This document shows, piece by piece, positions 20,359 to 38,034 of a stretch of DNA of 64,000 nucleotides. The stretch comes from an uncultured Tateyamaria sp. (GTDB taxonomy: Bacteria; Pseudomonadota; Alphaproteobacteria; Rhodobacterales; Rhodobacteraceae). Location of the stretch: NCBI RefSeq assembly GCF_947503045.1, contig NZ_CANNCF010000001.1, positions 1,240,001-1,304,000 on the forward strand, given 5' to 3'. How positions within the stretch are numbered: position 1 is the stretch's first letter; every line of letters begins with the position of its first letter. A model generated the notes under the pieces. It was not told where the DNA came from, did no database searches, and worked only from the letters and a program-made list of their open reading frames with translations. A program made the position numbers and the translations under genes.

Positions 20359-20570
20359 GGGGTCGATCACTCTTTTTGGGAATTGGAGGATACCGGTGTC
20401 TCGGGGCGACGGTAGTGCGCGGCTGCGCGGGCTTCAAGGTGAAGCGCGCGGGAACGCGGGCGGGTGCCCGCGTGTTGGTCCGACTTGAAAGCGAAAGGTC
20501 GCGCGCCACCCTTGCGCTAACGCGTTGGGGTCCGCACCCGGCATCGCAGATGAAACAGAAAGGATATGTC

Positions 20571-20762
20571 ATGTCATCGACCGACATCAGTGTTGAAAAG
20601 CAGACCCGCCGCCATCGCCCCGCACTGCTGGGGATCGGGATTGCGGTTGTCTCGACCGTCGTGGTGATCGCCGGGCTGGTCGCCTTTGGGGCGGGACCGG
20701 GCATTGACGAGGCGTCGAGCGGCGAGCCGCAGAACGAAGCGATGCCGATGATCTCGCAGTAA
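20571..20762 (+). CDS. Small single-pass membrane protein
   Basis: A 63-residue protein with a basic N-terminus (EKQTRRHRPA), one hydrophobic helix (about 22-43, GIGIAVVSTVVVIAGLVAF) and an acidic, probably periplasmic tail. ATG at 20571 has a good GAAAGGA site. It lies just before the photolyase gene on the same strand (45 bp gap) and could be co-transcribed. Function unknown. Confidence 0.6.
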   Translation: MSSTDISVEKQTRRHRPALLGIGIAVVSTVVVIAGLVAFGAGPGIDEASSGEPQNEAMPMISQ

Positions 20763-20807
20763 CCCAGTGAGTTTGGCGCGCCACACCATCAGCAGGGACC
20801 AACGGCC

Positions 20808-22331
20808 ATGACATCGGTGATGTGGTTCAAGCGGGATTTGCGGGTTGAGGACCATCCGGCCCTTGCCCGCGCTGCCGCCTATGGTGATGTGATCCCGCTT
20901 TTCGTGTTCGAACCGGACTATTGGACGCAACCGGACGTTTCTGGTCGCCAGTTTGCCTTTGTACGCGAAAGCGTGGAGGCGCTGGCCGCCGCTTGCGCCG
21001 CGTTGGGCGCACCGCTGGTGATCCGAGTCGGGCGGGTTGTGGATGTGCTGGCAGATATCCGCACGCAGGTTCCTTTTGACGCCCTGATCAGCCATGAAGA
21101 GACTGGCAGCGGCTGGACCTATGCCCGCGACAAGGACGTGGCGACGTGGTGTGCGGCCAATGCGGTGCGCTGGGAAGAACTGGCGCAATCGGGCGTCGTG
21201 CGCCGTCTGAACGGGCGGGATGGATGGGCCAAACGGCGCAACGCCTTTCTGCGCGCCGGGCAGGAGGCCACGCCCGAGCGGATCAGTGGGCCAGCGTTGG
21301 ACAATGACGCCGTGCCGGACCTCACAGCTCCAGACCATTGCCCCGACCGTCAGGCGGGTGGGCGTGACAACGGTCTGACCCTGCTCGACAGCTTTCTGAT
21401 GCAGCGCGGACAGACCTATCGGCGCGACATGTCTTCGCCCGTGACCGGAGAGGGTGCCTGTTCGCGCCTGTCCCCATACCTTGCCTTTGGGTGTCTCTCG
21501 GGGCGCGAGGTTGCGCAGGCCACAGCGGAGCGTCAACGCGAGGTGCAAGGCACGCGGGCAGGATGGGGCGGATCACTCAAATCCTTTCAGGCGCGGCTCG
21601 CTTGGCGCGATCACTTCATGCAAAAGCTCGAGGATGAACCGGCGCTGGAGCACCGCTGCCTGCATTCCGCTTATGAAGGGCTGCGCCCAAAGATTCCGGA
21701 CGCTGCGCGACTGGCCGCATGGGAAAAGGGCGAAACCGGCATGCCCTTTGTCGATGCCTGTATGCGCTACCTCGCGGCCACAGGCTGGATGAATTTCCGC
21801 ATGCGTTCGATGCTGATGGCCGTGGCCTCCTATCACCTCTGGCTCGATTGGCGGGTCACTGGCTTGCATCTGGCGCGCCAGTTCACCGATTTCGAGCCGG
21901 GCATTCACTGGCCGCAGGTGCAGATGCAGTCGGGCACGACGGGGATGAACACGGTGCGCATCTACAACCCGGTCAAGCAGGGGCGCGATCAGGACCCGAC
22001 CGGGGCCTTTACCCGCCGCTGGTGCCCGGAATTGGCCGAAGTGCCGGATGCGCACCTGCAAAACCCGTGGACATGGGACGGGGCGGGGACCCTTCTGGGA
22101 CGCGCCTATCCCGAACCGATTGCCGATGTGGCCGAGGCAGCGCGTGTTGCGCGCGAACGGGTCTGGGCCGTGCGCCGGGGCAATGCGTTTCGGGCAGAAG
22201 CTGTCCGGGTGATCGACAAACACGCCAGCCGCAAGGACAGTGCGGGCCATTTCGTCAATGACCGCGCGCCCAAACGTAAGGCGGGGGTGTCCCCCGCCCG
22301 CGACAATCGCCAGATGGGATTCGATTTCTGA
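20808..22331 (+). CDS. Photolyase/cryptochrome family flavoprotein
   Basis: A 507-residue member of the photolyase/cryptochrome superfamily, which uses FAD (usually with an antenna pigment) to repair UV lesions or sense light. The N-terminal Rossmann domain opens [15 protein letters not shown]. The C-terminal FAD domain contains [43 protein letters not shown] and [20 protein letters not shown]. The last stretch replaces the WxWxAGTG-type motif of ordinary CPD photolyases and is followed by [13 protein letters not shown]. This marks a non-classical branch, so repair versus signalling is unsettled. The last residues are encoded by a REP-like palindrome (22276-22298). A DUF2256 gene begins at its stop. 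Confidence 0.88.
22276..22298 (+). repeat. REP-like palindrome copy A, inside photolyase 3' end
   Basis: Header GTAAGGCGG then a perfect stem: GGCGGGG, loop GTG... TCCCCCGCC. It shares the 5' header GTAAGGCG with four other copies in this window. It lies in frame in the photolyase, encoding part of the [10 protein letters not shown] segment, 11 residues before the stop. Copy B lies in opposite orientation about 190 bp downstream. Confidence 0.78.
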
Positions 22332-22480
22332 TGGGGCGCATGCGCAAGACATCCGAGCTGCCGCAAAAGACCTGCCCGGTCTGCGCCCGCCCGTTCAGTT
22401 GGCGCAAGAAATGGGAGAAGGTCTGGGACGAGGTCAAATACTGCTCTGACAGGTGTCGTCGCGCCGCGCGCCGCAGTTGA
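22331..22480 (+). CDS. DUF2256 zinc-ribbon protein
   Basis: A 49-residue basic protein, [18 protein letters not shown]..., with a four-cysteine metal knot (CPVC near residue 15, then CSDRC near 38). This is the DUF2256 layout. Such genes are often found beside cryptochrome/photolyase genes. Its ATG shares one base with the photolyase stop (TGATG), so translation is probably coupled. It is too short to be called confidently on length alone; the Cys pattern and the neighbour support it. Its role in photoreactivation is not established. Confidence 0.85.
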
Positions 22481-22484
22481 AAAG

Positions 22485-22506
22485 GGCGGATCAGGATCCG
22501 CCTTAC
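22485..22506 (-). repeat. REP-like palindrome copy B, after DUF2256 gene
   Basis: On the minus strand: header GTAAGGCGG, then a stem GGCGGATC / GATCCGCC. It begins 5 bp after the DUF2256 stop and is opposed to copy A, so the DUF2256 gene sits between two convergent palindromes. It could also act as the hairpin of a terminator, but no T run follows. Confidence 0.75.
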
Positions 22507-22533
22507 GGGGCAATCACGACCGCTCACGCAGTT

Positions 22534-22554
22534 TTGGTCAAATTATCTGACCAA
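22534..22554. promoter_or_regulatory. Operator-like inverted repeat upstream of malate synthase gene
   Basis: A perfect inverted repeat, TTGGTCA and TGACCAA, separated by AATTATC. The half-sites resemble operators of GntR/FadR-subfamily regulators (for example TGGTC...GACCA), which often control lactate, glycolate and pyruvate genes. It lies about 70 bp before the glcB start, where a repressor or activator could act. The regulator is not in the window. Confidence 0.6.
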
Positions 22555-22626
22555 TGATGTTTACGATAGGAAACTTTTTCTCTAATCCTGACCGCGACTC
22601 GCAGATCAATGGCAGGAGAGCATGCA

Positions 22627-24774
22627 ATGGCGACATATGTGGAACGGGCAGAATTGCGCGTGGCGGACACGCTGGCCGGATTTATCGAAACGCAGGCCCT
22701 GCCGGGCACGGGCGTGGCCACGGCTGACTTTTGGGCCGGGTTGTCGGCGCTGGTTCACGATCTGGGCCCGAAAAACCGCGCCCTTCTGGCAGAGCGGGCG
22801 GACATTCAGGCCAAGATCGACGCTTGGCACGTGACCAACCGCGCCGCACCGCATGATGCCGCGGCCTACACGGCCTTTTTGACAGAGATCGGTTATCTTG
22901 TGCCCGAAGGCCCCGATTTTGAGATCGACACGGCCAATGTCGACCCCGAGATCGCCTCCACCCCCGGCGCGCAACTGGTGGTGCCGATCACCAATGCCCG
23001 CTTTGCCCTGAACGCTGCCAATGCCCGCTGGGGCAGCCTTTACGACGCACTTTATGGCACCGACGCGCTGGGCGATCTGCCAAGTGGTAAGGGCTATGAC
23101 GCAGAGCGCGGCGCGCGGGTGATCGCCTGGGCCAAAGGGTTTCTGGATGAGGCGGTGCCGCTGGATGGCGCGACATGGGCGGACGTGACAGGGATCGATC
23201 ATGATGCCGGCGGATTGGCCATTATGACGGCGCAGGGTGAGGTCCGTTTGAAAGCACCGGCACAATTTGCTGGAATTGCTCAGGACGGTGCCGAAATTCT
23301 GTTCTGTCATAATGGGTTGCACGTCATTGTTAAGCTGGACAAAAGCAGTGTCATCGGCGAAAGTGACCCCGCTGGCATGTCTGACGTCATTCTGGAATCC
23401 GCCTTGTCCACGATCATGGACTGTGAAGATTCCGTTGCGGCCGTGGATGCAGAAGACAAGATGCAGGCCTATTCCAACTGGCTGGGTCTGATGAAGGGCG
23501 ATCTGACCGAGAGCTTTGACAAGGGCGGCCAGACCATCACGCGACGCATGAATGCGGACAAGCGTTTTCGCGGTCAGGACGGGGCCGATGTCGTTGTGAA
23601 GGGTCGCAGCCTGATGCTGGTGCGCAATGTCGGCCACCTGATGACGAACCCCTCCATTCTGGACCGCGACGGCCTCGAAATCGGCGAAGGGCTGATGGAT
23701 GCGATGGTCACTACGCTGATCGCCATGCATGATCTCAAAAAGTCCGAGGGCCTGCGCAATTCGGTCACGGGTTCCGTCTACGTGGTCAAACCCAAGATGC
23801 ACGGGCCTGCCGAAGTCGCGTTCTCGGACGAGATTTTCACTCGCGTCGAAAAGGTGCTGGGCCTGCCGGCCAATACGGTCAAGCTGGGCATCATGGACGA
23901 GGAGCGCCGCACGTCCGCCAATCTCAAGGAGTGCATCCGGGCCGCAAAATCACGTGTGGCGTTCATCAACACAGGCTTCCTTGATCGCACGGGCGATGAA
24001 ATCCACACCTCGATGGAGGCCGGACCCATGGTGCCCAAGGGCGAGATGAAAGGGGCGGCGTGGATCTCGGCTTATGAGGATCGCAACGTGGATATTGGTC
24101 TGGCCTGTGGCCTCAAGGGGCGCGCGCAGATCGGCAAGGGGATGTGGGCGATGCCCGACCTCATGGCCGAGATGCTGGAGGCCAAGATCGGCCATCCACA
24201 ATCCGGTGCCACCTGCGCCTGGGTGCCCTCGCCGACGGCCGCTACGTTGCACGCCACCCACTATCACAAGGTGGACGTGCTCGCCCGTCAGGATGCCATC
24301 AAGGCAGGTGGTGCGCGTGGCAAACTCGCCGATCTGCTGACCATCCCGGTCGCCGTGGGCCGCAACTTTTCCGACGCCGAAATCAACCGCGAGCTGGAAA
24401 ACAACGCGCAAGGCATTCTGGGATATGTGGTGCGCTGGGTCGATCAGGGGGTCGGCTGCTCGAAAGTGCCCGACATCAACGATATCGCCCTGATGGAAGA
24501 TCGCGCCACCTGCCGCATTTCGGCGCAAGCCATGGCGAACTGGCTGCATCACGGCGTGGTCAGCGAGGATCAGGTGATGGCCGCGCTGAAAAAGATGGCC
24601 GAGGTGGTGGATCGCCAGAACGCGTCCGACCCGGCCTATGTGCCGATGGCGCCGGGCTTTGACGGGATCGCCTTTCAGGCGGCCTGCGATCTGGTGATTT
24701 TGGGTCGCGTGCAACCCTCGGGCTACACCGAGCCTGTGCTGCATGCCCGCCGGCTCGAGCACAAGGCGGCCTGA
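22627..24774 (+). CDS. glcB: Malate synthase G
   Basis: A 715-residue cytoplasmic enzyme that condenses glyoxylate with acetyl-CoA to malate, completing the glyoxylate bypass or glycolate use. The length matches the G isoform. The family core is visible: [65 protein letters not shown] and a C-terminal DVLARQ segment. ATG at 22627 ([12 protein letters not shown]) has the AGGAGA site; an earlier in-frame ATG at 22609 lies too close to that site. A GntR-like palindrome precedes it and a GlcG-like gene follows. Confidence 0.96.
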
Positions 24775-24795
24775 GGGTCGGATTGAGGGCGGGAA

Positions 24796-24818
24796 CGAGG
24801 GGGCTGTCTGCCCCCTCG
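24796..24818 (+). terminator. Strong GC hairpin after malate synthase
   Basis: A nine-base perfect stem (CGAGGGGGC / GCCCCCTCG) with a TGTCT loop lies 20 bp after the glcB stop, followed by a C-rich stretch and ATTTATTG. It is a plausible attenuator or mRNA 3' stabiliser that would limit read-through to the GlcG-like gene. The T run is short, so termination is not certain. Confidence 0.5.
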
Positions 24819-24890
24819 CGCTCCCCCGAGGATTTATTGAAAACAGAGAAGGGACGGGCGCAAGCCGCACAGTTCCGACAAGGAGAACAC

Positions 24891-25316
24891 ATGGGAATTT
24901 CACTGGATCAGGCGCGCACGATGATTGCCGCCACGCTCGAACAGGGTCACGAGATGGGGCTGAAGCCGCTGTCGGTTGTGGTGCTGGATGCGGGTGGCAA
25001 TGTGCAGGCATTCGAGCGCGAGGATGGCGCAGCGCCGGGGCGTTTTGCCATCGCGCATGGCAAGGCCTACGGGGCGGTCATGCTGGGCATGGCAGGTACG
25101 GCGCAAATGGCGCGGGCCGAGGCGCAGGCCTATTTCATGGGGGCCGTGAACGGTGTGTTCGGTGGGCAGGTGGTGCCGGTGCCCGGGGGCGTTCTGATCC
25201 GCGATAGTTCGGGCGCTGTGATCGGGGCCCTTGGGGTCACAGGTGATACGTCGGACAATGACGCCATCGCCGCACAAGCGGGTGTCGAGGCCGCAGGCCT
25301 TGTGGCGGAAATTTAG
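24891..25316 (+). CDS. GlcG/HbpS family heme-binding protein
   Basis: A 141-residue protein of the GlcG/HbpS fold (LSVVVLDAGGNVQAFEREDGA, then RFAIAHGKAYGAVMLGMA and VPGGVLIRDSSGAVIGALGVTGD). Members bind heme or degrade it, or accompany glycolate oxidase genes as glcG. Its position after malate synthase G mirrors glc operons. ATG at 24891 has a perfect AAGGAG site. No glycolate oxidase subunits are in the window, so it may be a detached member; its role is inferred. Confidence 0.85.
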   Translation: MGISLDQARTMIAATLEQGHEMGLKPLSVVVLDAGGNVQAFEREDGAAPGRFAIAHGKAYGAVMLGMAGTAQMARAEAQAYFMGAVNGVFGGQVVPVPGGVLIRDSSGAVIGALGVTGDTSDNDAIAAQAGVEAAGLVAEI

Positions 25317-25380
25317 GCACGGCCCGAACTGCGGCTTTGCGCACAGTGTTCTGCGCGCGGGACGCTACTAGGCTTGATCA

Positions 25381-25408
25381 CACATGGCCGCTATAAGGCA
25401 GCCATGTG
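25381..25408. promoter_or_regulatory. Inverted repeat before the C26-type hydrolase gene
   Basis: CACATGGC and GCCATGTG form a perfect eight-base inverted repeat with a 12-base spacer containing TATAAG, a possible -10 element. The centre is about 33 bp before the start codon. It could be an operator overlapping the promoter or a hairpin in the leader. Confidence 0.45.
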
Positions 25409-25427
25409 AACGACTTATGAGGACGCA

Positions 25428-26207
25428 ATGGCCCGCCCGATTATCGGTATCATCAGCAACCAGCACACGATCAACGATGAATACGTGGTGCAGGCCGCAG
25501 GCGAGATCAACATCTCGGCTGTTGCAGATGTCGCCGAGGGTTTGCCGCTGCTGGTGCCTGCCGATCCGGTCAATGTGCGCCTGAGCGATCTGCTGGAAAG
25601 CTGCGCGGGCTTTGTGTTCACCGGTGGGCGCGCCAATGTGCATCCCGAAGAATATGGCGAGGAAGAAACCCCCGCCCACGGTGCCTTTGATCGCAACCGG
25701 GACCGTATAACGCTGCCCCTGATCCGTGCGCTTGTCGAACGGGGCCAGCCGCTGCTGGGCATTTGTCGCGGCTTTCAGGAGGTGAACGTGGCGATGGGCG
25801 GCACGCTGTACCCCGAAATCCGCGACCTGCCGGGCCGCGACAACCACCGCATGCCCCCCGATGGCACGCTGGAAGAGAAATTCGCCCTGCGCCACAATGT
25901 AGAGTTCTCCGAAGGTGGTGTGTTTCACCAGTTGATGGGTGCGAGATCCGTGCTGACCAATACGCTGCACGGGCAGGGGATCAAGACCCCGGGCCCGCGT
26001 GTTGTGGTGGATGGCCATGCACCTGACGGCACGGCCGAAGCGGTCTATATCGACGGCGCGCCCGGCTTTACCCTGTCGGTGCAATGGCACCCCGAATGGA
26101 ACGCCAAGGCCGATCCGGTCTCGCGCCCGCTGTTTGAGGCCTTTGGCGCCGCCTGTCGCGACTGGGCGGATGGCCGTCGCGCGCGACCGATGCTGCGCAG
26201 CGCCTGA
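25428..26207 (+). CDS. Gamma-glutamyl-gamma-aminobutyrate hydrolase-like (peptidase C26)
   Basis: A 259-residue class-I glutamine-amidotransferase-fold hydrolase. The nucleophile Cys113 lies in LLGICRGFQEVNVAMGG, and His221 and Glu223 in VQWHPEWN complete the triad. The overall pattern matches the PuuD-like branch, which releases glutamate from gamma-glutamyl compounds in polyamine degradation. ATG at 25428 follows GAGGA. No putrescine genes are nearby, so substrate assignment is tentative. An inverted repeat lies upstream. Confidence 0.88.
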   Translation: MARPIIGIISNQHTINDEYVVQAAGEINISAVADVAEGLPLLVPADPVNVRLSDLLESCAGFVFTGGRANVHPEEYGEEETPAHGAFDRNRDRITLPLIRALVERGQPLLGICRGFQEVNVAMGGTLYPEIRDLPGRDNHRMPPDGTLEEKFALRHNVEFSEGGVFHQLMGARSVLTNTLHGQGIKTPGPRVVVDGHAPDGTAEAVYIDGAPGFTLSVQWHPEWNAKADPVSRPLFEAFGAACRDWADGRRARPMLRSA

Positions 26208-26259
26208 GCGCCGCCTCCATTTAACGCTGAATTAACCAAGCTGCGGCTAGCGTTGGTCC

Positions 26260-26823
26260 ATGCCACGCTCTGCCCCCTTTGCCCGCCCCGGTTGCACCTA
26301 TTTCATTACCCTGCGCGCCGCGCGGCGCGGCGATGACCTGTTCGTGCGTGAGATCGAGGCGTTGCGACAGGCCACCCGCAAGACCCGCGCCGCCTGTCCT
26401 TTCACGATCGACGAAATCGTAGTGCTGGGGGACGTGATCCACACCCTCTGGACCCTGCCGGAGGGCGACGCAGACTTTTCCCGCCGCATCCGCATGCTCA
26501 AAAGCGTCTTTTCCCGTAGCGTTCCTGCGCCTGCCGATGTCGGCACGCAACGGCTCCGTTCAGGGGAAAAGGGGCTGTGGCAGCGCCGGTTCTGGGAACA
26601 CGTGATCCGGGATCGCGACGATCTGGCGGCCCATCGCCACATGATCCTGACGGCGCCAGTGCAGGCGGGGCTGGTCAACCGCCCCGAGCAGTGGCCGCAT
26701 TCCTCGATCCACCGCGCCATTGCGCGCGGCACCTATGTGCCGAACGGGCGGGTGGGCGTCGCCTATCGCCCGACGCTAACCGGGCGCACGATGCGTGCGC
26801 CTTACGAGGCAGCGGCGCAGTAA
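26260..26823 (+). CDS. REP-associated tyrosine transposase (RAYT) with degenerate active site
   Basis: A 187-residue protein of the IS200-related RAYT family: PGCTYFITLRAARRGDDLFV, the TLPEGDADFSRRIRMLKS segment and LWQRRFWEHVIRD are clear hallmarks. Active members carry an H-x-H pair (as in DHMHAVW) and a Tyr in a Y-x3-NPV helix. Here the pair reads DVIHTLW (first His replaced by Val) and the helix reads HMILTAPV (Tyr replaced by Met). Single-strand cleavage is therefore unlikely. A REP-like palindrome (copy C) contains the stop codon, as expected for a REP/RAYT unit. It is probably a domesticated or decaying gene. Confidence 0.85.
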   Translation: MPRSAPFARPGCTYFITLRAARRGDDLFVREIEALRQATRKTRAACPFTIDEIVVLGDVIHTLWTLPEGDADFSRRIRMLKSVFSRSVPAPADVGTQRLRSGEKGLWQRRFWEHVIRDRDDLAAHRHMILTAPVQAGLVNRPEQWPHSSIHRAIARGTYVPNGRVGVAYRPTLTGRTMRAPYEAAAQ

Positions 26824-26842
26824 GGCGCAGGTGTCCTGCGCC
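26820..26842 (+). repeat. REP-like palindrome copy C, containing the RAYT stop codon
   Basis: Header GTAAGGCG, where TAA is the RAYT stop, then a perfect stem GGCGCAGG / CCTGCGCC with a TGT loop. The header and loop match copies A and E; the stem carries compensating G-C changes, as expected for a family kept for its hairpin. Confidence 0.78.
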
Positions 26843-26917
26843 CGGTGCGGGCTGCCACTTGCTCTGAACGGGCGATCCTGCAACCCTGCGATCATTGCAC
26901 CCGTTCCGAGGCAGAGC

Positions 26918-27370
26918 ATGAAAGACCTGATAGATATTCCCCCGGTCTGGCTGGCGCTGGCGATCATTGCCGCGTGGTGGCAGGCGCGGCTGTTTCCCAT
27001 GGGCCTGTCGTTGGACGGGGCAGTCACCGACGCGCTGGCCGGGATGCTGATCGGGGCAGGGGTGATCCTGATCATCGCCGCCGCGCTGGCGTTTCGACGC
27101 GCCCGCACCACGATCATCCCGCACCAGACGCCTGCGCACCTGATCACCACCGGCATCTTTGCCCGCAGCCGGAACCCGATCTACCTTGGGGATGCGTTGA
27201 TCCTGACGGGGCTGATCCTGCGCTTTGACGCTGTGCTGTCGCTGGTGCTTGTCCCGCTCTTTGTCTGGTGGATCGAGCGGCATTTCATCCTGCCCGAAGA
27301 GAATCGGATGCGTCGGGTCTTTCGGGCCGAATTTGCGGCCTACGAAAGAAAAGTACGCCGCTGGGTGTAA
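26918..27370 (+). CDS. ICMT-type isoprenylcysteine methyltransferase family membrane protein
   Basis: A 150-residue integral membrane protein with three to four helices. The C-terminal signature IPHQTPAHLITTGIFARSRNPIYLGD, then WIERHFILPEENRMRRVFRAEF, matches the phospholipid/isoprenylcysteine methyltransferase (ICMT/PEMT) fold. Prokaryotic members probably methylate lipids or other membrane substrates, so isoprenylcysteine is not implied. ATG at 26918 has a GAGGC site. It follows the RAYT unit without evident functional link. Confidence 0.85.
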   Translation: MKDLIDIPPVWLALAIIAAWWQARLFPMGLSLDGAVTDALAGMLIGAGVILIIAAALAFRRARTTIIPHQTPAHLITTGIFARSRNPIYLGDALILTGLILRFDAVLSLVLVPLFVWWIERHFILPEENRMRRVFRAEFAAYERKVRRWV

Positions 27371-27521
27371 ATCCTTGCGATTATGACCGAAGCCTCTGCG
27401 CGGCCCTGCTTGTATCTCGGTACCGGTAACGTTAATTGGACCGGCAAGTGGCGCGCGCCACTCTGTCCGTGCGGCCACAAGCCGCGTGATGTCTGCCACG
27501 ACTGCCAAAGGAGCGCTCCGT

Positions 27522-29102
27522 ATGAAGATCGGAACACCAAAAGAAACCTTTGCCGGAGAGCGCCGGGTCGCGATGACCCCCGAAAGTGCCACGGCCTTGC
27601 AAAAGCTGGGTCACACCTGCCTGATCGAAACGGGCGCAGGGCTCGAGGCCGGGTTTTCCGATGCGACCTACAAGGATGTGGGCGTCGAGGTGGTCAAGAC
27701 GGCGGCAGCCCTTTGGAAGGCGGCTGATGTGGTGGCCAAGATGCGCGCACCCGACGCCACCGAGATGAAACGCCTGCGCGAAGGGCAGACGCTGATTTCC
27801 TTCTTCAGCCCCGTTGCGGACGAAAAGAAGATGGCCGCCGCCGCCGAAAAGGGCGCCACCGTTGTCGCGATGGAGATGATCCCGCGCATCAGCCGCGCCC
27901 AGAAGATGGATGCGCTGTCCTCGATGGCGAATATCGCGGGCTACCGTGCCGTGATCGAGGCAGGCAACAATTTTGGCCGCTTTTTTACCGGTCAGATCAC
28001 CGCTGCGGGCAAGGTGCCACCGGCCAAGGTGCTGGTTGTGGGTGCGGGCGTTGCGGGCCTTGCCGCCATCGGGACGTCCACGTCGCTGGGCGCGATCACA
28101 TACGCCTTTGACGTGCGCCCCGAAGTGGCCGAGCAGGTCGAATCCATGGGCGCCGAATTCGTCTATCTCGACTTTGAAGAGGAACAGACCGACGGCGCGG
28201 CCACGGGCGGCTATGCCTCTGTATCCAGCCCGGAATTCCGCGAGGCGCAACTGGCCAAGTTCCGCGAACTGGCCCCCGAGGTCGATATCGTCATCACCAC
28301 GGCCCTGATCCCCAACCGCGAAGCACCGGAGCTCTGGACCGAAGACATGGTCGCCGCGATGAAGCCCGGTTCGGTTGTTGTTGACCTGGCTGCGGAAAAA
28401 GGCGGCAACTGCAAACTAACCGTGATGGACGAGAAAATCGTCACCGAAAACGGCGTCACCATCATCGGCTATACCGACTTCCCCAGCCGCATGGCGACGC
28501 AATCCTCGAACCTTTATGCGACCAACATCCGTCACCTGATGACGGACCTGACGCCGGAAAAAGACGGCGTGATCAACCACAACATGGAAGATGACGTGAT
28601 CCGCGGGGCGACAATCGCCCACGCCAAAGAGGTCACCTTTCCGCCGCCGCGTCCCAAGGTGGCCGCCATTGCAGCAGCCCCGAAAAAGGACAAGCCCAAA
28701 GAACTGACGCCGACCGAAAAACGCGATCTGGAAACGGCTGCGTTCAAGGCGCAGACCCGCAATCAGGTCACGTTGTTGGGCGCCGGTGCCGCGCTTGTGC
28801 TGGGGGTCGGGTTGATCCCGGGGATGCCTGCCAGCTTCATGCAGCACTTCATCGTCTTTGTGCTCAGCGTCTTCATCGGCTTCCAGGTAATCTGGAACGT
28901 GGCCCACAGCCTGCACACGCCGCTGATGGCCGTGACCAACGCCATTTCGTCGATCATCATTCTGGGCGCTCTGATCCAGGTGGGCTCGTCGAGCATGCTG
29001 ATCACATTACTGGGCGGTCTGGGGATTTTGATGGCCTCCGTCAACATCTTCGGCGGCTTCCTCGTGACACGGCGCATGCTCGCCATGTTCCAGAAATCTT
29101 AA
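27522..29102 (+). CDS. pntA: Proton-translocating NAD(P) transhydrogenase subunit alpha
   Basis: Subunit alpha of the membrane transhydrogenase, which uses the proton gradient to reduce NADP+ with NADH. The 526 residues hold the alanine dehydrogenase/PNT N-domain ([20 protein letters not shown]), the NAD-binding Rossmann motif [15 protein letters not shown] and a C-terminal region with about three or four membrane helices (from about 400). This is the fused form; some alphaproteobacteria split it into PntAA and PntAB. ATG at 27522 has AAAGGAG. pntB follows 16 bp later. The roughly 150 bp upstream holds no recognisable operator. Confidence 0.96.
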
Positions 29103-29118
29103 GACGGGGCAGGGACTT

Positions 29119-30636
29119 ATGGAAAACGCATTCACCATCGCGGCCTATGTGGTCGCAGCCATCCTCTTTATCCTCTCGCTGGGCGGCCTTTCGGGGCAGG
29201 AAAGCGCCAAACGTGCCGTCTGGTACGGCATTGTCGGCATGGCCATCGCCGTGCTTGCGACGCTGGTCGGCCCCGGCTCTGGCCTCTGGTTTGCCTCGCT
29301 TGTGCTGATCGCAGGCGGCGCAGCCGTGGGCTATCAACTGGCCACCAAGGTCGAGATGACGCAGATGCCCGAACTGGTGGCCATCATGCACAGCCTCGTG
29401 GGTCTGGCGGCGGTCTTTGTCGGGTTCAACGCCGATCTGATGATCAACTATATCGCTGACATCTACGCTGCCGAGGGCCTCGTGATGGGCGCGGTGGGCG
29501 ACAACGGTGTCACCGCCGTCGGCCTGCCCAAAGAAATCTACGAAGGGCTGTCGGCCTTTGGTCAGCTCATCGCCAAGAAATCCAGCGTCGAGATCGGCAT
29601 CCTGCGGGTTGAACTGGTGCTGGGCATCTGGATCGGGGCCGTGACCTTTACCGGGTCGGTCATCGCCTATGCCAAGCTGGCGGGATCGTCCTCCAAACTG
29701 CCGATCGAAATCGACACGAGCGCCAAGAAACTGCCCGGTGGGCATTTGTTGAACGCGGGCGCAGCGGCGCTGTCGGTGATCCTGCTGATCATGTATCTCA
29801 GCGGGTCTGGATCGTGGGCGCTGGTTCTGCTGACGCTGGCCGGTCTCTTCATTGGCTATCACCTGATCATGGGCATTGGCGGCGCGGACATGCCCGTCGT
29901 TGTGTCGATGCTGAACAGCTATTCCGGCTGGGCGGCCGCGGCCATCGGCTTCAGCCTTGGCAATGACCTATTGATCGTTGTGGGTGCGCTTGTGGGCTCG
30001 TCCGGTGCGATCCTGTCCTACATCATGTGCAAGGCGATGAACCGGTCGTTTGTGAGCGTTATTCTGGGCGGCTTTGGCGGCCCGGCAGGCGAGCAGATGG
30101 CGGTCGAGGGCGAGCAGATCGCCATCGAGGCCGACGGTGTAGCTACGGCGCTGAACGAGGCGGACAGCATCGTGATCATCCCCGGTTACGGCATGGCGGT
30201 GGCGCAGGCCCAGCAGGGCGTGGCCGAGTTGACGCGTAAGCTGCGCGCGGCTGGCAAGACAGTGCGCTTTGCCATTCACCCGGTTGCCGGGCGTTTGCCG
30301 GGCCACATGAACGTGCTCTTGGCAGAGGCCAAGGTGCCCTATGACATCGTGATGGAAATGGACGAGATCAACGACGATTTCCCTGACACCGATGTGGCCA
30401 TCGTCATTGGGTCCAACGACATCGTGAACCCGGCCGCACAGGACGATCCGAACTCGCCCATCGCAGGCATGCCGGTTCTTGAATGCTGGAAGGCCAAGCA
30501 GGTGTTTGTCTCGAAACGCGGGCAGGGCACAGGCTATTCCGGCATCGAGAACCCGCTGTTCTTCAAGGACAACACGCGGATGTTCTATGGCGATGCCAAG
30601 GCGTCCATCGACAAACTGCTGCCGATGATCGACTGA
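29119..30636 (+). CDS. pntB: Proton-translocating NAD(P) transhydrogenase subunit beta
   Basis: Subunit beta of the transhydrogenase. The N-terminal two thirds contain about eight membrane helices with small-residue packing, and the C-terminal domain III binds NADP(H) through [16 protein letters not shown] and [16 protein letters not shown]. At 505 residues it is slightly longer than the common 460-480 because of extra loop residues around 110-160. It follows pntA on the same strand; the pair is complete in the window. A terminator lies about 50 bp downstream. Confidence 0.96.
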
Positions 30637-30688
30637 CGGAACAGAGGCACCCTCGACGCGAAATGCGCTTGGGCATGCAGGAAAAACT

Positions 30689-30715
30689 AAGGCGGGCCAA
30701 TGGGTCCGCCTTTTT
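30689..30715 (+). terminator. Rho-independent terminator after pntB
   Basis: AAGGCGGGCC pairs with GGTCCGCCTT (one G-U pair) around an AATG loop and is followed by five T residues. It lies 53 bp after the pntB stop, and transcription of pntAB probably ends here. Confidence 0.8.
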
Positions 30716-30942
30716 CATTTCTTGGGCGGCTTGGCCTTGCCGCCAATAAGGGGCAAAGCCAGTGGCATTGTCGAACAGCTGCCCCAAATGCAAGTGCATA
30801 ACCTGCGCGAACAGGGGCAGATGGGCGGGATCGGCGCGCGGTATACAATTGTACTCTGTTAACGCATTGAAATAGCGTGTAAAAAATATTGGCATCACGC
30901 CCGGTTCAGGCTAGGTCTGTCACACACACGCTTGGAGCAGAC
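30716..30942. other. Intergenic stretch without a convincing gene
   Basis: Between the pntAB terminator and the DUF3422 gene. A minus-strand reading frame here has protein-like codon choice (FAQVMHLHLGQLFDNATGFAP) but would run through the terminator and overlap pntB, so it is not called. AT-richer sequence just upstream of 30900 (AAAAAATATTG) may hold the promoter of the DUF3422 gene. Confidence 0.4.
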
Positions 30943-32226
30943 ATGTCCCCTGTAGAAGACCACCCGCTGCGCTACCAGTTGGCCAACGAATTGCACGCAC
31001 GGCCCTTTCCGTCGATGCAGGCACCTTGTGCTGCGGCCTATGTGGCCTTCAAACAGCCGGAAATGGCCGCCAATCGCGACCGGGCGGCAGATATTGAGCA
31101 TCTGCACAAACTGCTGGATCGCCACGGCGCGCAGCATCCCCAGCCCGGGGCCACCCACTATTACGGGCAGGTCGGGCGGCATTGGCTGAAATGGGAACAG
31201 CACACCGAATTTGTGACCTACACCGTCTTTTCCGAAGGGGTGGAGGAGCGCCCATTCGATCCCCGCGCCTTTGATCCGTTTCCGCAGGATTGGCTGGAAC
31301 AGGCGCCCGGGCAGCGGGTGACGTCGATCCTCGTGCGGGTCGAGCCGCGCGTGCCGTCCAAGGACATCCAGTCCCGCCTGCGAGACTGGTTCGTGCCCGA
31401 AAGCCTTGCCGCCAGTTCCGTGCTTGAGAACGCGGCGATCATGGCTGGCGACTTCCGCATTGATCAGAACGGGCACATGCGCTTTGCCCTGTTCGTGACC
31501 AAGGGCACCGGCGAGCGCCGCGTCGGGCGCATCGTCCAGCGCCTGTGCGAGATCGAGACCTACAAATCCATGTCGATGCTCGGCTTTGCCCGCGTGCGTG
31601 GCCTCGGCGCGCAACTGGGCGCGCTCGACACCCGCCTGACGGAACTGGTCGAAAGCATGTCGGTCGAAACGTCCAAGGCCGAAGACACGCTGCATTCGCT
31701 GCTCGAAATCTCGGCCGAGTTGGAGACCTTGTCCGCCCAAAGCTCGTTCCGGTTCGGGGCGACCTGGGCCTATGAGGCGATCGTGAATGAGCGCATCGCG
31801 GCCTTGCGCGAAGAACGCTATGAGGGCCGCCAGACCTTCCGCGAGTTCATGGTGCGCCGCTATCAGCCCGCCATGCGCACGGTGCGCTCGGCCCAAGACC
31901 GGCTGGATGCGATGAGTGCGCGCGGCGTGCGCGCCGCCAACCTGCTGCGCACCCGCGTCGACGTCGAACGTTCGGCCCAGAACCAGACACTCTTGGAAAG
32001 AGTGGACAAACGCGCCGACCTGCAACTGCGTCTTCAGCGCACGGTCGAGGGGTTGTCTGTGGTGGCGATCAGCTACTACGCGGTGTCTTTGGCGTCCTAC
32101 CTGCTGTACCCGCTTGAGGCGCCCACGGGCCTGTCCAAGGGCCTGCTGACGGCGCTGATCACCGTGCCTGTGGTGCTGCTGGTCTGGGCGGCTGTGCGGC
32201 GCTTGCGCCGGGCGGTGGAGAAGTAG
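30943..32226 (+). CDS. DUF3422 family membrane protein
   Basis: A 427-residue protein of the DUF3422 family. It opens DHPLRYQLANELHARPFP, has a long helical middle with probable coiled coil (about 225-355), and ends with two membrane helices (about 370-390 and 400-418). The N-terminal soluble part is therefore probably cytoplasmic. Function is unknown in the family. ATG at 30943 has TTGGAG upstream. No neighbour suggests a pathway. Confidence 0.85.
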   Translation: MSPVEDHPLRYQLANELHARPFPSMQAPCAAAYVAFKQPEMAANRDRAADIEHLHKLLDRHGAQHPQPGATHYYGQVGRHWLKWEQHTEFVTYTVFSEGVEERPFDPRAFDPFPQDWLEQAPGQRVTSILVRVEPRVPSKDIQSRLRDWFVPESLAASSVLENAAIMAGDFRIDQNGHMRFALFVTKGTGERRVGRIVQRLCEIETYKSMSMLGFARVRGLGAQLGALDTRLTELVESMSVETSKAEDTLHSLLEISAELETLSAQSSFRFGATWAYEAIVNERIAALREERYEGRQTFREFMVRRYQPAMRTVRSAQDRLDAMSARGVRAANLLRTRVDVERSAQNQTLLERVDKRADLQLRLQRTVEGLSVVAISYYAVSLASYLLYPLEAPTGLSKGLLTALITVPVVLLVWAAVRRLRRAVEK

Positions 32227-32582
32227 GGGCGGGGTTAGTTTAAGCGCTGGCGACCGTGCGAATAACACCGCCACCGCGCCGATCCATTGCCAGTCCGCGG
32301 GGTAGCGCGCAAACGCAGATTCCCGGGCGGGTTATGGATCAAGGGTATCTTTTCGCTGCCATGCCGCGCCAAGACCAGCCATATCGCCAGCCCGGTCGGG
32401 CGGCATTGTCCATTGTCTCTCGGACCAATGGCGAGACAATTCCTGATCAATGGATCGTCGCCTTCGGCCTGGTTCCGATCTGGGTAGTTAGCGATGGGTC
32501 GTTTTCAGCCCTAACTCATTGATGTTGCGACCCACCTTGATCACTGACGGTCAGCGCCCCTCGGAGCGCTCAGGGTCTGGCG
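32227..32582. other. Gene-poor stretch, possible relic
   Basis: No intact gene is supported. On the minus strand two short reading frames (PTGLAIWLVLARHGSE in one frame and ADWQWIGAVAVLFA in another) look like pieces of membrane helices and would join by a frameshift, as in a decayed DMT-type transporter end. The evidence is weak. Confidence 0.35.
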
Positions 32583-33035
32583 TCAGTCGTCCGTCCTGCC
32601 TTGGCGCAAGACGGTCCCATCGTCAGCCACCAAACGCCAGTTGGGCGGCTCATGAAACAGGGTCTCTCCACTGTCCGGATAGCGCACGAGGTCGGTTTCC
32701 GGCAGTGATCCAACGACGAAGTAGACGACCGGTGCGGCGGACATGTTCTTCACATGATGGGCGTTCTGGGCTCCGGCGGGCCAGACTGCGATATCTCCGG
32801 GCGTCAACACATGTGCGCCGTCGTCCTCTATCACCGTTGCTTCGCCTTCCAAAAGGACGAGGATTTCGTCTGAATTCCTGTGCCAGTGCCGATCAGACGA
32901 AGTCTCGCCCGGCGCCAAAGTCACTACATTCGCGCCGAGATGCATGAGGTCAAAGGCCGCACCAACTTTCTGCTCTGTTCGCGACCAGGTGCCGTCAATG
33001 CGTTCTTTGGCGACAGAGTTCTTTCGAGCAATCAT
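32583..33035 (-). CDS. Cupin domain protein
   Basis: A 150-residue single cupin. The double motif is visible: HWHRNSDEILVLLEGEATVIEDDG (motif 1, His and Glu ligands) and then PGDIAVWPAGAQNAHHVKN (motif 2, His). It is probably a metal-binding enzyme or sugar/metabolite-binding protein in the cytoplasm. ATG at 33035. Both neighbours are isolated genes, so substrate and pathway are not indicated. Confidence 0.83.
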   Translation of the reverse strand: MIARKNSVAKERIDGTWSRTEQKVGAAFDLMHLGANVVTLAPGETSSDRHWHRNSDEILVLLEGEATVIEDDGAHVLTPGDIAVWPAGAQNAHHVKNMSAAPVVYFVVGSLPETDLVRYPDSGETLFHEPPNWRLVADDGTVLRQGRTDD

Positions 33036-33170
33036 GCGGGGCCTCCAGATCGTGTTGGCAAGTGCGTTTTGTCAGCGCTACGCCCCCTATTCTATCTCCC
33101 AATCAACGGCCTGTTCGACTCCTTTTTGGGGCGTTCGCGCAGCACGCTGATCACGTGCATTTCGCACGAT

Positions 33171-33668
33171 CTATGGCAGCATTGACAGATTGGTTGGCTC
33201 GGGCACCACACCTGCGGCGGTCAACATGGCGTGGACTTGCCCCCGGTGATGGGTCTGGTGATTGAAGAGTTCAGCGACACAGAGGGTCTTTGGCCGCTCA
33301 ATCCGGGTCGCGCCGTCGCCCGGATACCAGACAACCATGCCTTCCAGGTCATGATCCATCAAACCGCGTGCCCAGTCTTCAATCTCCGCGTCACGTTTCG
33401 CACGCAGGTTCACGAAGTCATCCCAGTTCGATGGGCTGGTAAGGGAGTGTGTGATGGTCTCCTCTGGCCGCAGGTTTCCCTTCAATCGCTGCAAAATCAG
33501 GGCATCAGCCCAATAAAGATGGTTCAGCGTGGCCGCAATGGATTGGAAAAACGCGCCGCGATCCATCCAGCGCGCCGCATCGCTGAGACCGCCAGCGGCT
33601 GTCACCAAAGAGGTGTTTTGCCACGCATTGTAGCGGGCCATGAGTCGGCAATTTTCGGCTGAGATCAT
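33171..33668 (-). CDS. DinB family protein
   Basis: A 165-residue four-helix DinB/YfiT-like protein. The three-histidine metal site is visible in LNHLYWAD and FNHQTHHRGQVH. Family members include metal-dependent thiol transferases and uncharacterised proteins. A frame opens at 33692, but ATG at 33668 (MISAENCRLMARYNAWQ) has AAGGAG nine bases upstream and is the better start. Function unknown. Confidence 0.88.
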   Translation of the reverse strand: MISAENCRLMARYNAWQNTSLVTAAGGLSDAARWMDRGAFFQSIAATLNHLYWADALILQRLKGNLRPEETITHSLTSPSNWDDFVNLRAKRDAEIEDWARGLMDHDLEGMVVWYPGDGATRIERPKTLCVAELFNHQTHHRGQVHAMLTAAGVVPEPTNLSMLP

Positions 33669-33875
33669 CTTCTCAGACTCCTTTGTTTTCATGTTGGGAT
33701 GGTTTTGGGACGCTTATCGAAGCGTCTGTCCGTTGTGCTTAACCACACCGTGGTCTCGTGCACGAGGTTGCCTGGCGATCAAGTCAGTGCCGCCACGCAA
33801 CTGTTTTAGGCTCCGCCATTTCAGCAATAGCGTCAAGCGTCAGGCAGGACAGGAAAGTCCCACAGTCTTACGACC

Positions 33876-34862
33876 TCAGCGCCCCCGGATCCGCGGATCA
33901 AGTGCGTCGCGCAGGCCGTCGCCAAGGTAGTTTACTCCCAGCACTGTCAGTGAAATCAGCAGGCCCGGCAGGATCACCCGTTCGGGGTATTGCTCCATCC
34001 GCTGCACCGCATCCGCCAGCAGCTTGCCCCATGTGGGAAAGTCCGACGGAAAGCCGACGCCGAGGAAGGACAGCGCGCTTTCGGTGATGATCGCCGTGGC
34101 CAGACCCAGCGTGGCTGACACCATGATCGGCGAGATCACGTTGGGCAACAGATGGCGCATGATAATCGACCCCGACGTGGTCCCGATCGAGCGGGCGGCG
34201 AGGATGAACTCGCGCTCTTTCAATGCCAGAATGTCGCCGCGCACGATCCGCGCGGTCTGCATCCATGAGGTGAGGCCAATGACCCCGACAATCAAGATGA
34301 ACATGCCCCCTTCGGGTCCGAAATTTGCCCTGAGCGGTTGTCGGAACAGGGTCACTGCAACCAAGAGCAGGGGCAGGATGGGCAGGGACAGCACAAGGTC
34401 GGTAAAGCGCATCAGCCAGAAGTCGGCCTTTTTGAAATAGCCCGACACAACGCCCACGGCGGTGCCGATCAGCAGGGCCAGCACCATCGCCGCCCAACCC
34501 ACGGCCATCGAGGCGCGCCCGCCCGCAATCAGGTTGGCCAGAAAGTCCCGCCCGATCTGGTCGGTGCCCAGCGGATGAGCCCAGTCGACCTTGGCCGTAT
34601 TGTCCCAGAGCGCCACATAGATGGGGCGGATATCGCGCATCGTCAGGATTTCGCGCCCCTTGGGGGTCGCCTGCGGATCGACCTGCCACAGCCACGGCCC
34701 GATCAGCACGGCCAGGGTGATAAAGACCAGGAACCCGCCGCCGAACAACGCGCCCTTGTGGTGCTTGAACTGGTCCCAAACGTCTTTCCACTGGCTGCGG
34801 GGGGCCTTGGGCGGCTCCTTGTCCTGCAGGGCGGCATAGGGGTCGATGGCTTGATCAGTCAT
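33876..34862 (-). CDS. Dipeptide/oligopeptide ABC permease, OppC/DppC type
   Basis: A 328-residue permease with six membrane helices. The cytoplasmic coupling region (EREFILAARSIGTTSGSIIMRHLLPN) and the C-terminal SFLGVGFPSDFPTWG segment are typical of the OppC/DppC type, and a short soluble extension precedes helix 1. Its start overlaps the upstream permease stop by eight bases. It forms the second permease of the transporter whose binding protein and first permease lie upstream; the ATPase is on the other strand at 38035. Confidence 0.95.
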   Translation of the reverse strand: MTDQAIDPYAALQDKEPPKAPRSQWKDVWDQFKHHKGALFGGGFLVFITLAVLIGPWLWQVDPQATPKGREILTMRDIRPIYVALWDNTAKVDWAHPLGTDQIGRDFLANLIAGGRASMAVGWAAMVLALLIGTAVGVVSGYFKKADFWLMRFTDLVLSLPILPLLLVAVTLFRQPLRANFGPEGGMFILIVGVIGLTSWMQTARIVRGDILALKEREFILAARSIGTTSGSIIMRHLLPNVISPIMVSATLGLATAIITESALSFLGVGFPSDFPTWGKLLADAVQRMEQYPERVILPGLLISLTVLGVNYLGDGLRDALDPRIRGR

Positions 34863-35862
34863 AGCGGATCCTCGGGTCGAGCACGCCGTAGAGCACGTCG
34901 GCTATGAGGTTGAAGAGCACGATCAGGATCGCAAAGATAAAGGTCAGCGTCATCACCATGGGAATGTCATTGGCAAAGAGCGCGGTCAGCAGAAGCTGCC
35001 CGATCCCGTTCACCTTGAACACGTTTTCGGTGATGATCGCGCCGCCAAAGATGGCCGGAATGCCAAGGGCGATCACGGTGATCACCGGGATCATCGAGTT
35101 GCGCAGCACGTGCTGCATGACCACAACCCCTTCGCGCAGGCCCTTGGCGCGGGCGGTGCGCACATAGTCCTGTCCAAGGTTGTCGAGCATGGACGAGCGC
35201 ATGTAGCGCGAGATTTGCGCGGTGGTCTGCAGCGCCAGCACCATGACCGGCATCACCATCTGCATGAACTGCACTTTGAAACTGGCCCAGTCGGTCACCA
35301 CGTGGGTGGTGTCATAGATCGAGGGCAGCCAGCCCAGCTGCACCGAAAAGACCACGATCAGCAGCGGTCCGGTAAAAAAAGGTGGGATCGAAAAGCCGAT
35401 CATCGTAATGAACGTGCCGGACTGGTCAAAGACCGAATACTGTTTGTAAGCCGAATAGATGCCAATGGGCAGGGCGATCAGGATGCCAACGATATAGGAC
35501 AGGCCCACGACCCAGAGGGTCTGCGGAATGCGCTGCACCACGATGTCCATCACGGGGCTGCGGGTCTGCCATGAGATCACGCGCAGCTTGCCTTCGGAAA
35601 AGGTGGTCCCGAGCCAGTGATCGAGCAGCACCTGCGGTTCGATCCAGAAGAACTGCACAATCCATTTCCAGTACTGGATGTGGATGGGTTGGCCGAGGCC
35701 GAGGGCTTCGCGCATCTTTTCTTTGACCTCGGGCGGGACGGTCAGGGGCACCTGCGCCATCGGATCGCCGGGCGCCAGCTGCAGCAGCAGGAAAATGACG
35801 AGGCTGATGAACAAAAGCGTCGGGATCGACAGGATCAACCGGCGGATTGTGAATGTCAGCAT
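34855..35862 (-). CDS. Dipeptide/oligopeptide ABC permease, OppB/DppB type
   Basis: A 335-residue permease starting in FTIRRLILSIPTLLFISLVIF, with six membrane helices and the coupling loop LGQDYVRTARAKGLREGVVVMQHVLRNSMIPVI in the second half. It pairs with the OppC-type permease, overlapping by eight bases. The binding-protein gene is about 150 bp upstream on the same strand, separated by two REP-like palindromes. Confidence 0.95.
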   Translation of the reverse strand: MLTFTIRRLILSIPTLLFISLVIFLLLQLAPGDPMAQVPLTVPPEVKEKMREALGLGQPIHIQYWKWIVQFFWIEPQVLLDHWLGTTFSEGKLRVISWQTRSPVMDIVVQRIPQTLWVVGLSYIVGILIALPIGIYSAYKQYSVFDQSGTFITMIGFSIPPFFTGPLLIVVFSVQLGWLPSIYDTTHVVTDWASFKVQFMQMVMPVMVLALQTTAQISRYMRSSMLDNLGQDYVRTARAKGLREGVVVMQHVLRNSMIPVITVIALGIPAIFGGAIITENVFKVNGIGQLLLTALFANDIPMVMTLTFIFAILIVLFNLIADVLYGVLDPRIRYD

Positions 35863-35909
35863 AAAGCGGCCAGTCCTTTTTCGGAGGTCTTTTTTGTTGG
35901 CGGGCGCAG

Positions 35910-35932
35910 GGCGGACAACATGTCCGCCTTAC
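35910..35932 (-). repeat. REP-like palindrome copy D
   Basis: On the minus strand: header GTAAGGCGG, stem GGCGGACA / TGTCCGCC. With copy E it forms an inverted pair (about 47 bp apart), a BIME-like arrangement, between the binding-protein and permease genes. Confidence 0.78.
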
Positions 35933-35979
35933 GGGGTATGAGGTCCCGCCGATCAGCAATGGCCACCGGCGGGGGATGA

Positions 35980-36002
35980 GTAAGGCGGAGGTGTCCTCCG
36001 CC
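35980..36002 (+). repeat. REP-like palindrome copy E
   Basis: Header GTAAGGCGG, stem GGCGGAGG / CCTCCGCC with a TGT loop. It starts 9 bp downstream of the binding-protein stop in the direction of transcription, so it would form a hairpin at the 3' end of that message. Partner of copy D. Confidence 0.78.
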
Positions 36003-36011
36003 TTGCCCGGT

Positions 36012-37715: not shown

Positions 37716-38034
37716 GTTTTACTCCTTGTTGGACGGTCCGGCGCACCTGAACCGTCAATCGCGCGCCCCGTTGGCCGGAGCGCATTTTTCAACGCTTGGG
37801 AAATTCGGATCGCATACCGGCGTAACCTACGGTTTCTCCGACGATTTTGCCCTTTGCCCCCAAGCACACGCCAACATCGAAACAGACTTTGGCGAAAATG
37901 CAAGCCTCGCGTGCGGTCAAGGGATGATTTTGGACATCTAAAGTTTGACAGTGCCTGAGGCTTCGACCACTCTTTTCAAAAGGTGAGCCAAATCGGCTCA
38001 AACCGAGCCAAACGGCGCGACAGCGGGGATGTAC
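37716..38034. promoter_or_regulatory. Divergent intergenic region of the transporter, with GAGCC repeats
   Basis: The regulatory space between the binding-protein gene (minus) and the fused ATPase gene (plus). Near its right end, at 37985-38009, GAGCC-AAATC-GGCTC-AAACC-GAGCC makes two overlapping inverted repeats with alternating arms, which could be an operator. I see no clear promoter hexamers and no gene. Confidence 0.5.

Follow-up and report, generated by a model that had tools for sequence, protein, structure and literature searches.

Why bacteria keep single-copy genes for REP-associated tyrosine transposases (RAYTs) and many repetitive extragenic palindromes (REPs) is an open question, and the locus described here raises it for a RAYT that has lost residues used for cutting. 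The locus lies in a stretch of 64,000 nucleotides (the window; G000:C1:1240001-1304000) of the 4.74 Mb genome of an uncultured Tateyamaria sp. (Rhodobacteraceae; source genome G000). The window holds the RAYT gene and a family of palindromes headed by the tetranucleotide GTAA. We give a probability of about 0.6 to the reading that these GTAA-headed REPs are recognised by a RAYT that the host has kept and that lacks the canonical single-strand cutting chemistry; its binding, its lack of cutting and its role are what we infer from sequence.

The window has 10 copies of the header GTAAGGCG, where 0.76 are expected and the highest count among 100 shuffles was 2. Six of the ten sites lead a hairpin with a perfect 8-bp stem and the head GTAA, and the remaining four (7962, 9231, 16446 and 59888) have no such stem. 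The loop is 3 nt long in the window copies, except at 22485, where it is 2 nt. The six hairpins form three inverted pairs:

22276..22298, + strand: GTAA-headed REP, stem GGCGGGGG/CCCCCGCC, loop TGT
22485..22506, - strand: GTAA-headed REP, stem GGCGGATC/GATCCGCC, 2-nt loop
26783..26805, - strand: GTAA-headed REP, stem GGCGCACG/CGTGCGCC, within the RAYT coding sequence at its 3' end
26820..26842, + strand: GTAA-headed REP, stem GGCGCAGG/CCTGCGCC, loop TGT; its head provides the TAA stop codon of the RAYT
35910..35932, - strand: GTAA-headed REP, stem GGCGGACA/TGTCCGCC, inverted partner of 35980..36002
35980..36002, + strand: GTAA-headed REP, stem GGCGGAGG/CCTCCGCC, loop TGT

The initial annotation of this DNA had listed five palindromes with perfect stems of 7-8 bp; those five are real, the copy at 26783-26805 had been overlooked, and all six stems are perfect at 8 bp. 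The sequence GGTGTCC is common to three copies, as it had stated, and the two inverted pairs that it drew from four copies are indeed inverted, the sixth copy bringing the number to three. Its claim that stem differences are compensated was borne out as well: all four middle stem pairs are present at 61 of 69 sites that were chosen without regard to those pairs, and the pairing among 17 distinct sequences exceeds that of all 2000 shuffles. In alignment A4, 100% of 102 cells were paired and the covariation score was reached in 0 of 500 shuffles, which is weaker evidence because the rows of A4 were selected as hairpins.

The family extends well beyond the window. The exact-loop pattern GTAAGGCGNNNNTGTNNNNCGCC has 35 matches in the source genome, and its reversed form has none there or in any of the 37 genomes searched. 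Exact-loop copies were found in 16 of 20 Tateyamaria genomes (besides the source genome, 15 with 1-81 copies each) and in none of 17 genomes outside the genus. A covariance model built from 16 copies, with 150 candidates scored per genome (150 of 6619 in the source genome), gave 88 matches at E<=1 in the source genome, 77-125 in 12 other genus genomes, 56 in G009, 25 in G015 and 2-15 in each of G006, G013, G016, G018 and G019. The genome-wide count proposed as a check is thus far above chance (35 exact-loop matches against a control of 0; 88 by the covariance model), and the relatives carry the family with compensated stems. The counts of header (10 vs. 0.76) and pattern (35 vs. 0) exclude chance, the scatter of header sites over the contigs of the source genome excludes local duplication, and a known RNA family was ruled out, as Rfam 15 gave no gathering-score match in positions 20000-38000 of the window. 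In four 400-kb regions, hairpins whose stems start with GG(C/T)G had the head GTAA in 14, 9, 9 and 14 cases; the head was GTAG in 0, 0, 1 and 2, and any one of five further heads accounted for 0-1.

The gene that carries the second pair at its 3' end is as follows:

26260..26823, + strand: gene for a RAYT of 187 aa and of the APxxAG type, in the family of REP-associated tyrosine transposases (NF047646, 4er8)

Its assignment to the family is clear. The protein scored 140.6 bits against NCBIfam NF047646 (cut-off 80), a model that also matched 16 of the 16 members of alignment A1; the only Protein Data Bank sequence match of A1 was 4er8 (E 1.8e-40). 4er8 was also the structure closest to an AlphaFold2 model of the window protein (predicted local distance difference test score 84, predicted template modelling (TM) score 0.79). 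A Pfam search with the open reading frame (ORF) alone at 0.001 returned no families, and an ordinary IS200 element (IS200/IS605 transposase) was rejected, the score against PF01797 being 14.2 bits with a cut-off of 23. The sequence family of a RAYT is therefore present, and the HUH motif and the catalytic tyrosine are not. With the numbering of 4er8, which reproduces H59, H61, Y115 and N119 of E. coli, the window protein has Val59, His61, Met115 and Ala119, so that only His61 is kept. PMC6006769 gives the tyrosine as the nucleophile and N119 as the third metal ligand; the window RAYT consequently lacks the nucleophile and two of the three known metal ligands, and the locus is not an ordinary REP/RAYT pair.

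These losses are shared across a clade. Among 181 distinct RAYTs at the fetched loci, 41 are of the type that we call APxxAG, a class defined by A or S at position 119 plus A at 123 (A119 in 98%, A123 in 100%). Tyr115 is absent in 40 of the 41 and His59 in 37, while H59, H61 and Y115 are all kept in 122 of the 181, L109 included. No alignment column has a tyrosine in more than 73% of the clade, and no tyrosine is invariant among the 16 Tateyamaria orthologues. Kept in the clade are Q95 (98%) and R104 (88%), both named as contacts to the head in E. coli TnpAREP (PMC8266576), and R19 is nearly fixed (95%). A quick tree was made from 4er8 and 122 of the 181 RAYTs, without the catalytic columns, and in it the APxxAG proteins form one Rhodobacteraceae clade with a Shimodaira-Hasegawa-like approximate likelihood ratio test (SH-aLRT) support of 92.

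The head of the neighbouring hairpins goes with the type of the protein, across genera. Beside the 41 APxxAG genes we found GTAA hairpins only at 18, GTAG only at 2, both at 1 and neither at 20; beside the other 140 RAYT genes the numbers were 1, 57, 3 and 79. The contrast of 18:2 with 1:57 has a Fisher p of 1.6e-14, too small a value, as are two-by-two p-values here, because related loci and genomes are treated as independent. The coupling also appears in whole genomes. At least 25 GTAA pattern matches occur in 8 of 295 genomes of the family (G000 69, G009 26, G124 40, G202 46, G206 145, G230 82, G231 35 and G326 97; reversed control 6-11), and all eight carry an APxxAG RAYT. Examples of GTAG-rich genomes are G061 and G063, with 192 and 118 GTAG pattern matches; in these counts a hairpin with both heads is entered under GTAA and GTAG alike. 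Within Tateyamaria, G013, G016 and G019 have no exact copies, and no full-length APxxAG RAYT was found in them. In all 17 Tateyamaria APxxAG loci (L032, L035-L050) the first histidine and the tyrosine are lost, and GTAA hairpins lie within 350 bp of the gene in 13. At the place matching 26783-26805 a minus-strand hairpin occurs in L035-L037, L039 (with the head GTAC), L040-L044 and L047. For many RAYTs, APxxAG and other alike, the stop codon comes from the head of the REP that follows: the TAA of GTAAGG in 13 of the 41 APxxAG genes and the TAG of GTAGG in 4, compared to 3 and 54 of the other 140.

The copies favour gene 3' ends. Over 1.66 Mb of sequence sampled from five genomes, with genes called by a crude custom script, 42 of 52 copies were intergenic (p 8e-28), intergenic DNA making up 13.4% of the sequence; only 7 of 31 bare headers were intergenic in the same DNA. 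Within the window itself the figure is 3 of 6. With a slightly different pattern, 22 of 36 intergenic copies lay between convergent genes and none between divergent ones (expected 5.1 and 9.4). Neighbours less than 250 bp apart were inverted in 14 of 18 pairs (10 -+ and 4 +-), the arrangement of bacterial interspersed mosaic elements (BIMEs). Two further expectations of the initial annotation were thereby confirmed, namely that copies would be mostly intergenic, by this crude gene caller and despite the three within genes in the window, and that a RAYT gene would lie close by, at 26260-26823. Its REP/BIME reading is supported by the genome-wide counts, the relatives, the compensated stems, the intergenic bias and the adjoining RAYT. 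The elements are multi-copy, mostly intergenic and RAYT-flanking as REPs are, and differ in the tetranucleotide, which is GTAA and not GT(A/G)G; it was through this GTAA head that the family was identified. Ordinary 3'-end terminators or mRNA stabilisers, with a coincidental link to the RAYT, would also be GC-rich hairpins with strong 3'-end placement. We consider this very improbable: the GTAA head lies outside the stem and is far commoner than the other heads tested in the four regions, it is coupled to the RAYT clade across genera, REPs stand at the RAYT gene itself, and exact copies are missing from the three Tateyamaria genomes without a detected full-length APxxAG gene.

Judged by the ratio of nonsynonymous to synonymous substitution rates (dN/dS), the RAYT is under purifying selection within Tateyamaria: among 16 orthologues the median was 0.167 (86 of 120 pairs, those with dS<2), and the pair with the lowest dS gave 0.083. 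This value of about 0.17, and the finding that none of the 17 Tateyamaria APxxAG loci has an internal stop within the match, speak against the idea that the RAYT is a relic, its REPs having been spread by an active ancestor or in trans by intact GTAG-type RAYTs, with both now drifting. Decayed or missing REPs at orthologous places agree with that idea, as do intact RAYT paralogues in several Tateyamaria genomes. The source genome has one on contig C2 (L033, C2:302704) with GTAG hairpins inside the gene, and mobilisation in trans may occur in genomes with such a gene. GTAG hairpins were also seen inside the intact RAYT genes L053, L061, L105 and L127; hairpins within RAYT genes are described for subclass 2.4 in PMC6006769. 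We regard the relic explanation as unlikely, since RAYTs outside the clade mostly adjoin GTAG hairpins and ten present-day genomes, at the sensitivity of NF047646, gave no intact RAYT (G009, G012, G014, G015, G017, G018, G206, G230, G231 and G124), although one may have been present in the past. Each of the ten has a single NF047646 match, the APxxAG gene. Eight of them have sizeable GTAA families, defined as at least 22 exact-loop copies or at least 25 pattern matches (exact-loop copies: G009 5, sizeable by the pattern matches; G012 58; G014 22; G017 77), and G015 (3) and G018 (1) do not. PF01797, which excludes IS200-type enzymes but is insensitive to RAYTs and did not report those found by NF047646, had no match in these ten genomes or in G202 and G326. 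A second, partial NF047646 match below the cut-off was seen in G202, and a second RAYT is present in G326, G092 and G336.

The same genomes could be taken to show an active pair with a rebuilt active site, in which the APxxAG RAYT still mobilises REPs by other chemistry, through another nucleophile or through His61 with other ligands. G231, G124, G230 and G206 have GTAA counts of 35-145 with the APxxAG gene as the only RAYT found, many copies are identical within a genome, some REP positions differ between close species, and other residues such as R19 are nearly fixed in the clade. Given the changes in the nucleophile and in two of the three known metal ligands, and with no tyrosine that is invariant in the orthologues or exceeds 73% in the clade, we find such a pair quite improbable. 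The stability of REP positions also speaks against it. Between G017 and G008 (400 kb), 7 of 9 REPs align across and have the hairpin in G008. In favour of the preferred reading, these seven are identical at 156 of 162 bases, compared to 0.788 in their 60-bp flanks, and the difference in one of them (12448) is a compensated base-pair change.

Clean insertions that postdate the catalytic loss and have an empty site were sought, and none is claimed as shown. The best candidate is the window pair 35910-36002, which was not found at the corresponding place in 16 other genomes with alignable flanks. It is not claimed because the same stem-loop is present there in G011 under the head GTTA, and different GTAA and GTAG hairpins occupy the place in G007. 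The intergenic gap 35870-36010 carries hairpins that differ between species (GTAG, GTAA, GTTA and other heads) and is a place of hairpin replacement. Neither is a clean insertion claimed for the REP at 699879 in G004, which lacks a counterpart in G012. At the place orthologous to 22276, a GTAA hairpin is present in G010 and G011 and an imperfect one in G014; the GTAA head is absent in G012, G004, G006, G009, G015, G018, G230 and G293. In the window this REP lies inside the last codons of a photolyase-type gene (20808-22331) and is translated as the C-terminal tail of the protein. By eye, G012 and G004 encode a similar peptide without the GTAA head.

Several observations weigh against a host-kept, hairpin-binding RAYT. 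Neither head was found at 20 of the 41 APxxAG loci, and two have GTAG only. An APxxAG RAYT was read in 15 family genomes, a minimum as residues were read only for located loci and 40 fetched loci, and seven of these genomes have only 0-14 GTAA pattern matches (G336 5, with stems that start GATG and are missed by the pattern; G092 14; G293 1; G299 0; G177 9; G098 8; G025 5). G231, whose sole detected RAYT is of the APxxAG type, has about as many GTAG as GTAA matches (32 and 35). G006 has an APxxAG RAYT (L050) but no exact copies, and exact copies are few in G018, G015 and G009. Three other comparisons of REPs with their flanks, which include misaligned rows and lost copies, showed little or no excess (0.772/0.784, 0.868/0.789 and 0.794/0.778), and the conservation of shared REPs could come from gene conversion instead. 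The clade comes from a quick tree and has moderate support. Loss of the tyrosine alone is not special to it, since the alignment shows the tyrosine missing from twelve further RAYTs, one of them truncated.

Under the preferred reading, the RAYT would still bind the folded hairpin through the GTA- of the head plus the stem and would not cleave it, and the host would retain it as a REP-binding protein at gene 3' ends, acting on single-stranded DNA or on the transcript. Binding would thus persist, cleavage would be gone in the cell, and the retained function would concern the hairpins. That a family-wide RAYT clade lost catalysis, became such a host protein and saw the REP head change from GTAG to GTAA in step is a proposition that we place at even odds. 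The order of events is suggested by a few graded cases. L109, from a Flavimaricola metagenome-assembled genome, is the sole APxxAG exception that keeps H59, H61 and Y115, with A119; L290, L291 and L292 keep HUH without the tyrosine. Four GTAA hairpin matches lie beside each of L109, L290 and L291, and G124, the genome of L292, has four GTAA hairpins in 20 kb around the gene. These residues, together with GTAA hairpins, suggest that the changes at 119/123 and in the head preceded the loss of the tyrosine and histidine. Our guess is that N119 to A and K122-H123 to x-A came first, with the G-to-A change of the head, that the tyrosine was lost next and the histidine last. The change of the fourth head base fits a relaxed constraint after loss of cutting, because head bases choose the cleavage site, as shown in one system (Mb) and only suggested for E. 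coli (PMC8266576).

Compared with described systems, the pair appears REP/RAYT-like in recognition and unlike in cutting. The window protein shares family and fold with E. coli TnpAREP (4er8; 34% identity, TM 0.74/0.84 for the AlphaFold2 model) but has lost Tyr115, His59 and Asn119. Its REPs resemble E. coli REPs and BIMEs as mostly intergenic hairpins with a 5' tetranucleotide and inverted pairs, and differ in the head GTAA instead of GTAG and in a short perfect stem without the bulge described for E. coli. As in Pseudomonas and Stenotrophomonas, the palindrome is short and GC-rich with a 2-4 nt centre and the RAYT is flanked by its own REPs; heads GT(A/G)G and conserved catalytic residues are reported for those genera (PMC2817692, PMC3686654). 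A third comparison is with the GTAG REPs that have intact RAYT paralogues in Tateyamaria (such as L033, L051 and L058), which belong to the same protein and element family in the same genus and differ in having HUH, Tyr and Asn intact and the head GTAG. PMC3733652, PMC2817692 and PMC3686654 describe the RAYT HUH and tyrosine as conserved. In PMC6006769, 722 of 924 sequences were retained as having both motifs, and a lack of core motifs was read as an indication that a protein is non-functional; such motif-based filtering may be the reason this clade went unseen. The initial annotation knew of no description with this header, and the head GTAA does not appear in the main text of PMC3733652, PMC6006769, PMC2817692 or PMC3686654. 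Neither GTAA REPs in Rhodobacteraceae nor a RAYT clade without catalysis was described in the literature listings, which leave most subscription papers uncovered. What is new is the pairing of GTAA REPs with a RAYT that, like its 16 genus orthologues, lacks Tyr115, Asn119 and the first His of HUH.

The genes around the RAYT are shared among related loci:

25428..26207, + strand: conserved gene upstream of the RAYT; its likeness to amidotransferases and PuuD was judged by eye only
27486..30636, + strand: two ORFs downstream of the RAYT, similar to transhydrogenase alpha/beta by eye only

The upstream neighbour adjoins the RAYT in all 17 Tateyamaria APxxAG loci, the window included, and at six loci of other genera (L097, L098, L100, L103, L108 and L112), with the RAYT inverted beside the same neighbours in L097, L103, L108 and L112. 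It was not found at seven other APxxAG loci (L054, L099, L101, L102, L104, L109 and L110). The downstream neighbours were seen where flanks reach far enough (L032, L045, L094-L096 and six loci of other genera). The source genome also encodes, on a small contig, a PF01797-type, IS200-like protein (L031, G000:C11:35095-35451; 135 bits). At least 15 of the listed genomes, from different genera, share the sequence GTAAGGCGGGGTTCGCAGGCACC, which is no hairpin of the GTAA REP type and may be a conserved stretch of a gene.

According to PMC8049555, the exact role of RAYTs is unknown. A natural clade in which the gene, the hairpins and their match persist and the residues for cutting are gone sets binding apart from transposition and offers a way to test why these genes and repeats are kept. 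If the preferred reading is true, REP families would persist over long evolutionary times without a cutting transposase, and the REP/RAYT system would have a function separable from transposition.

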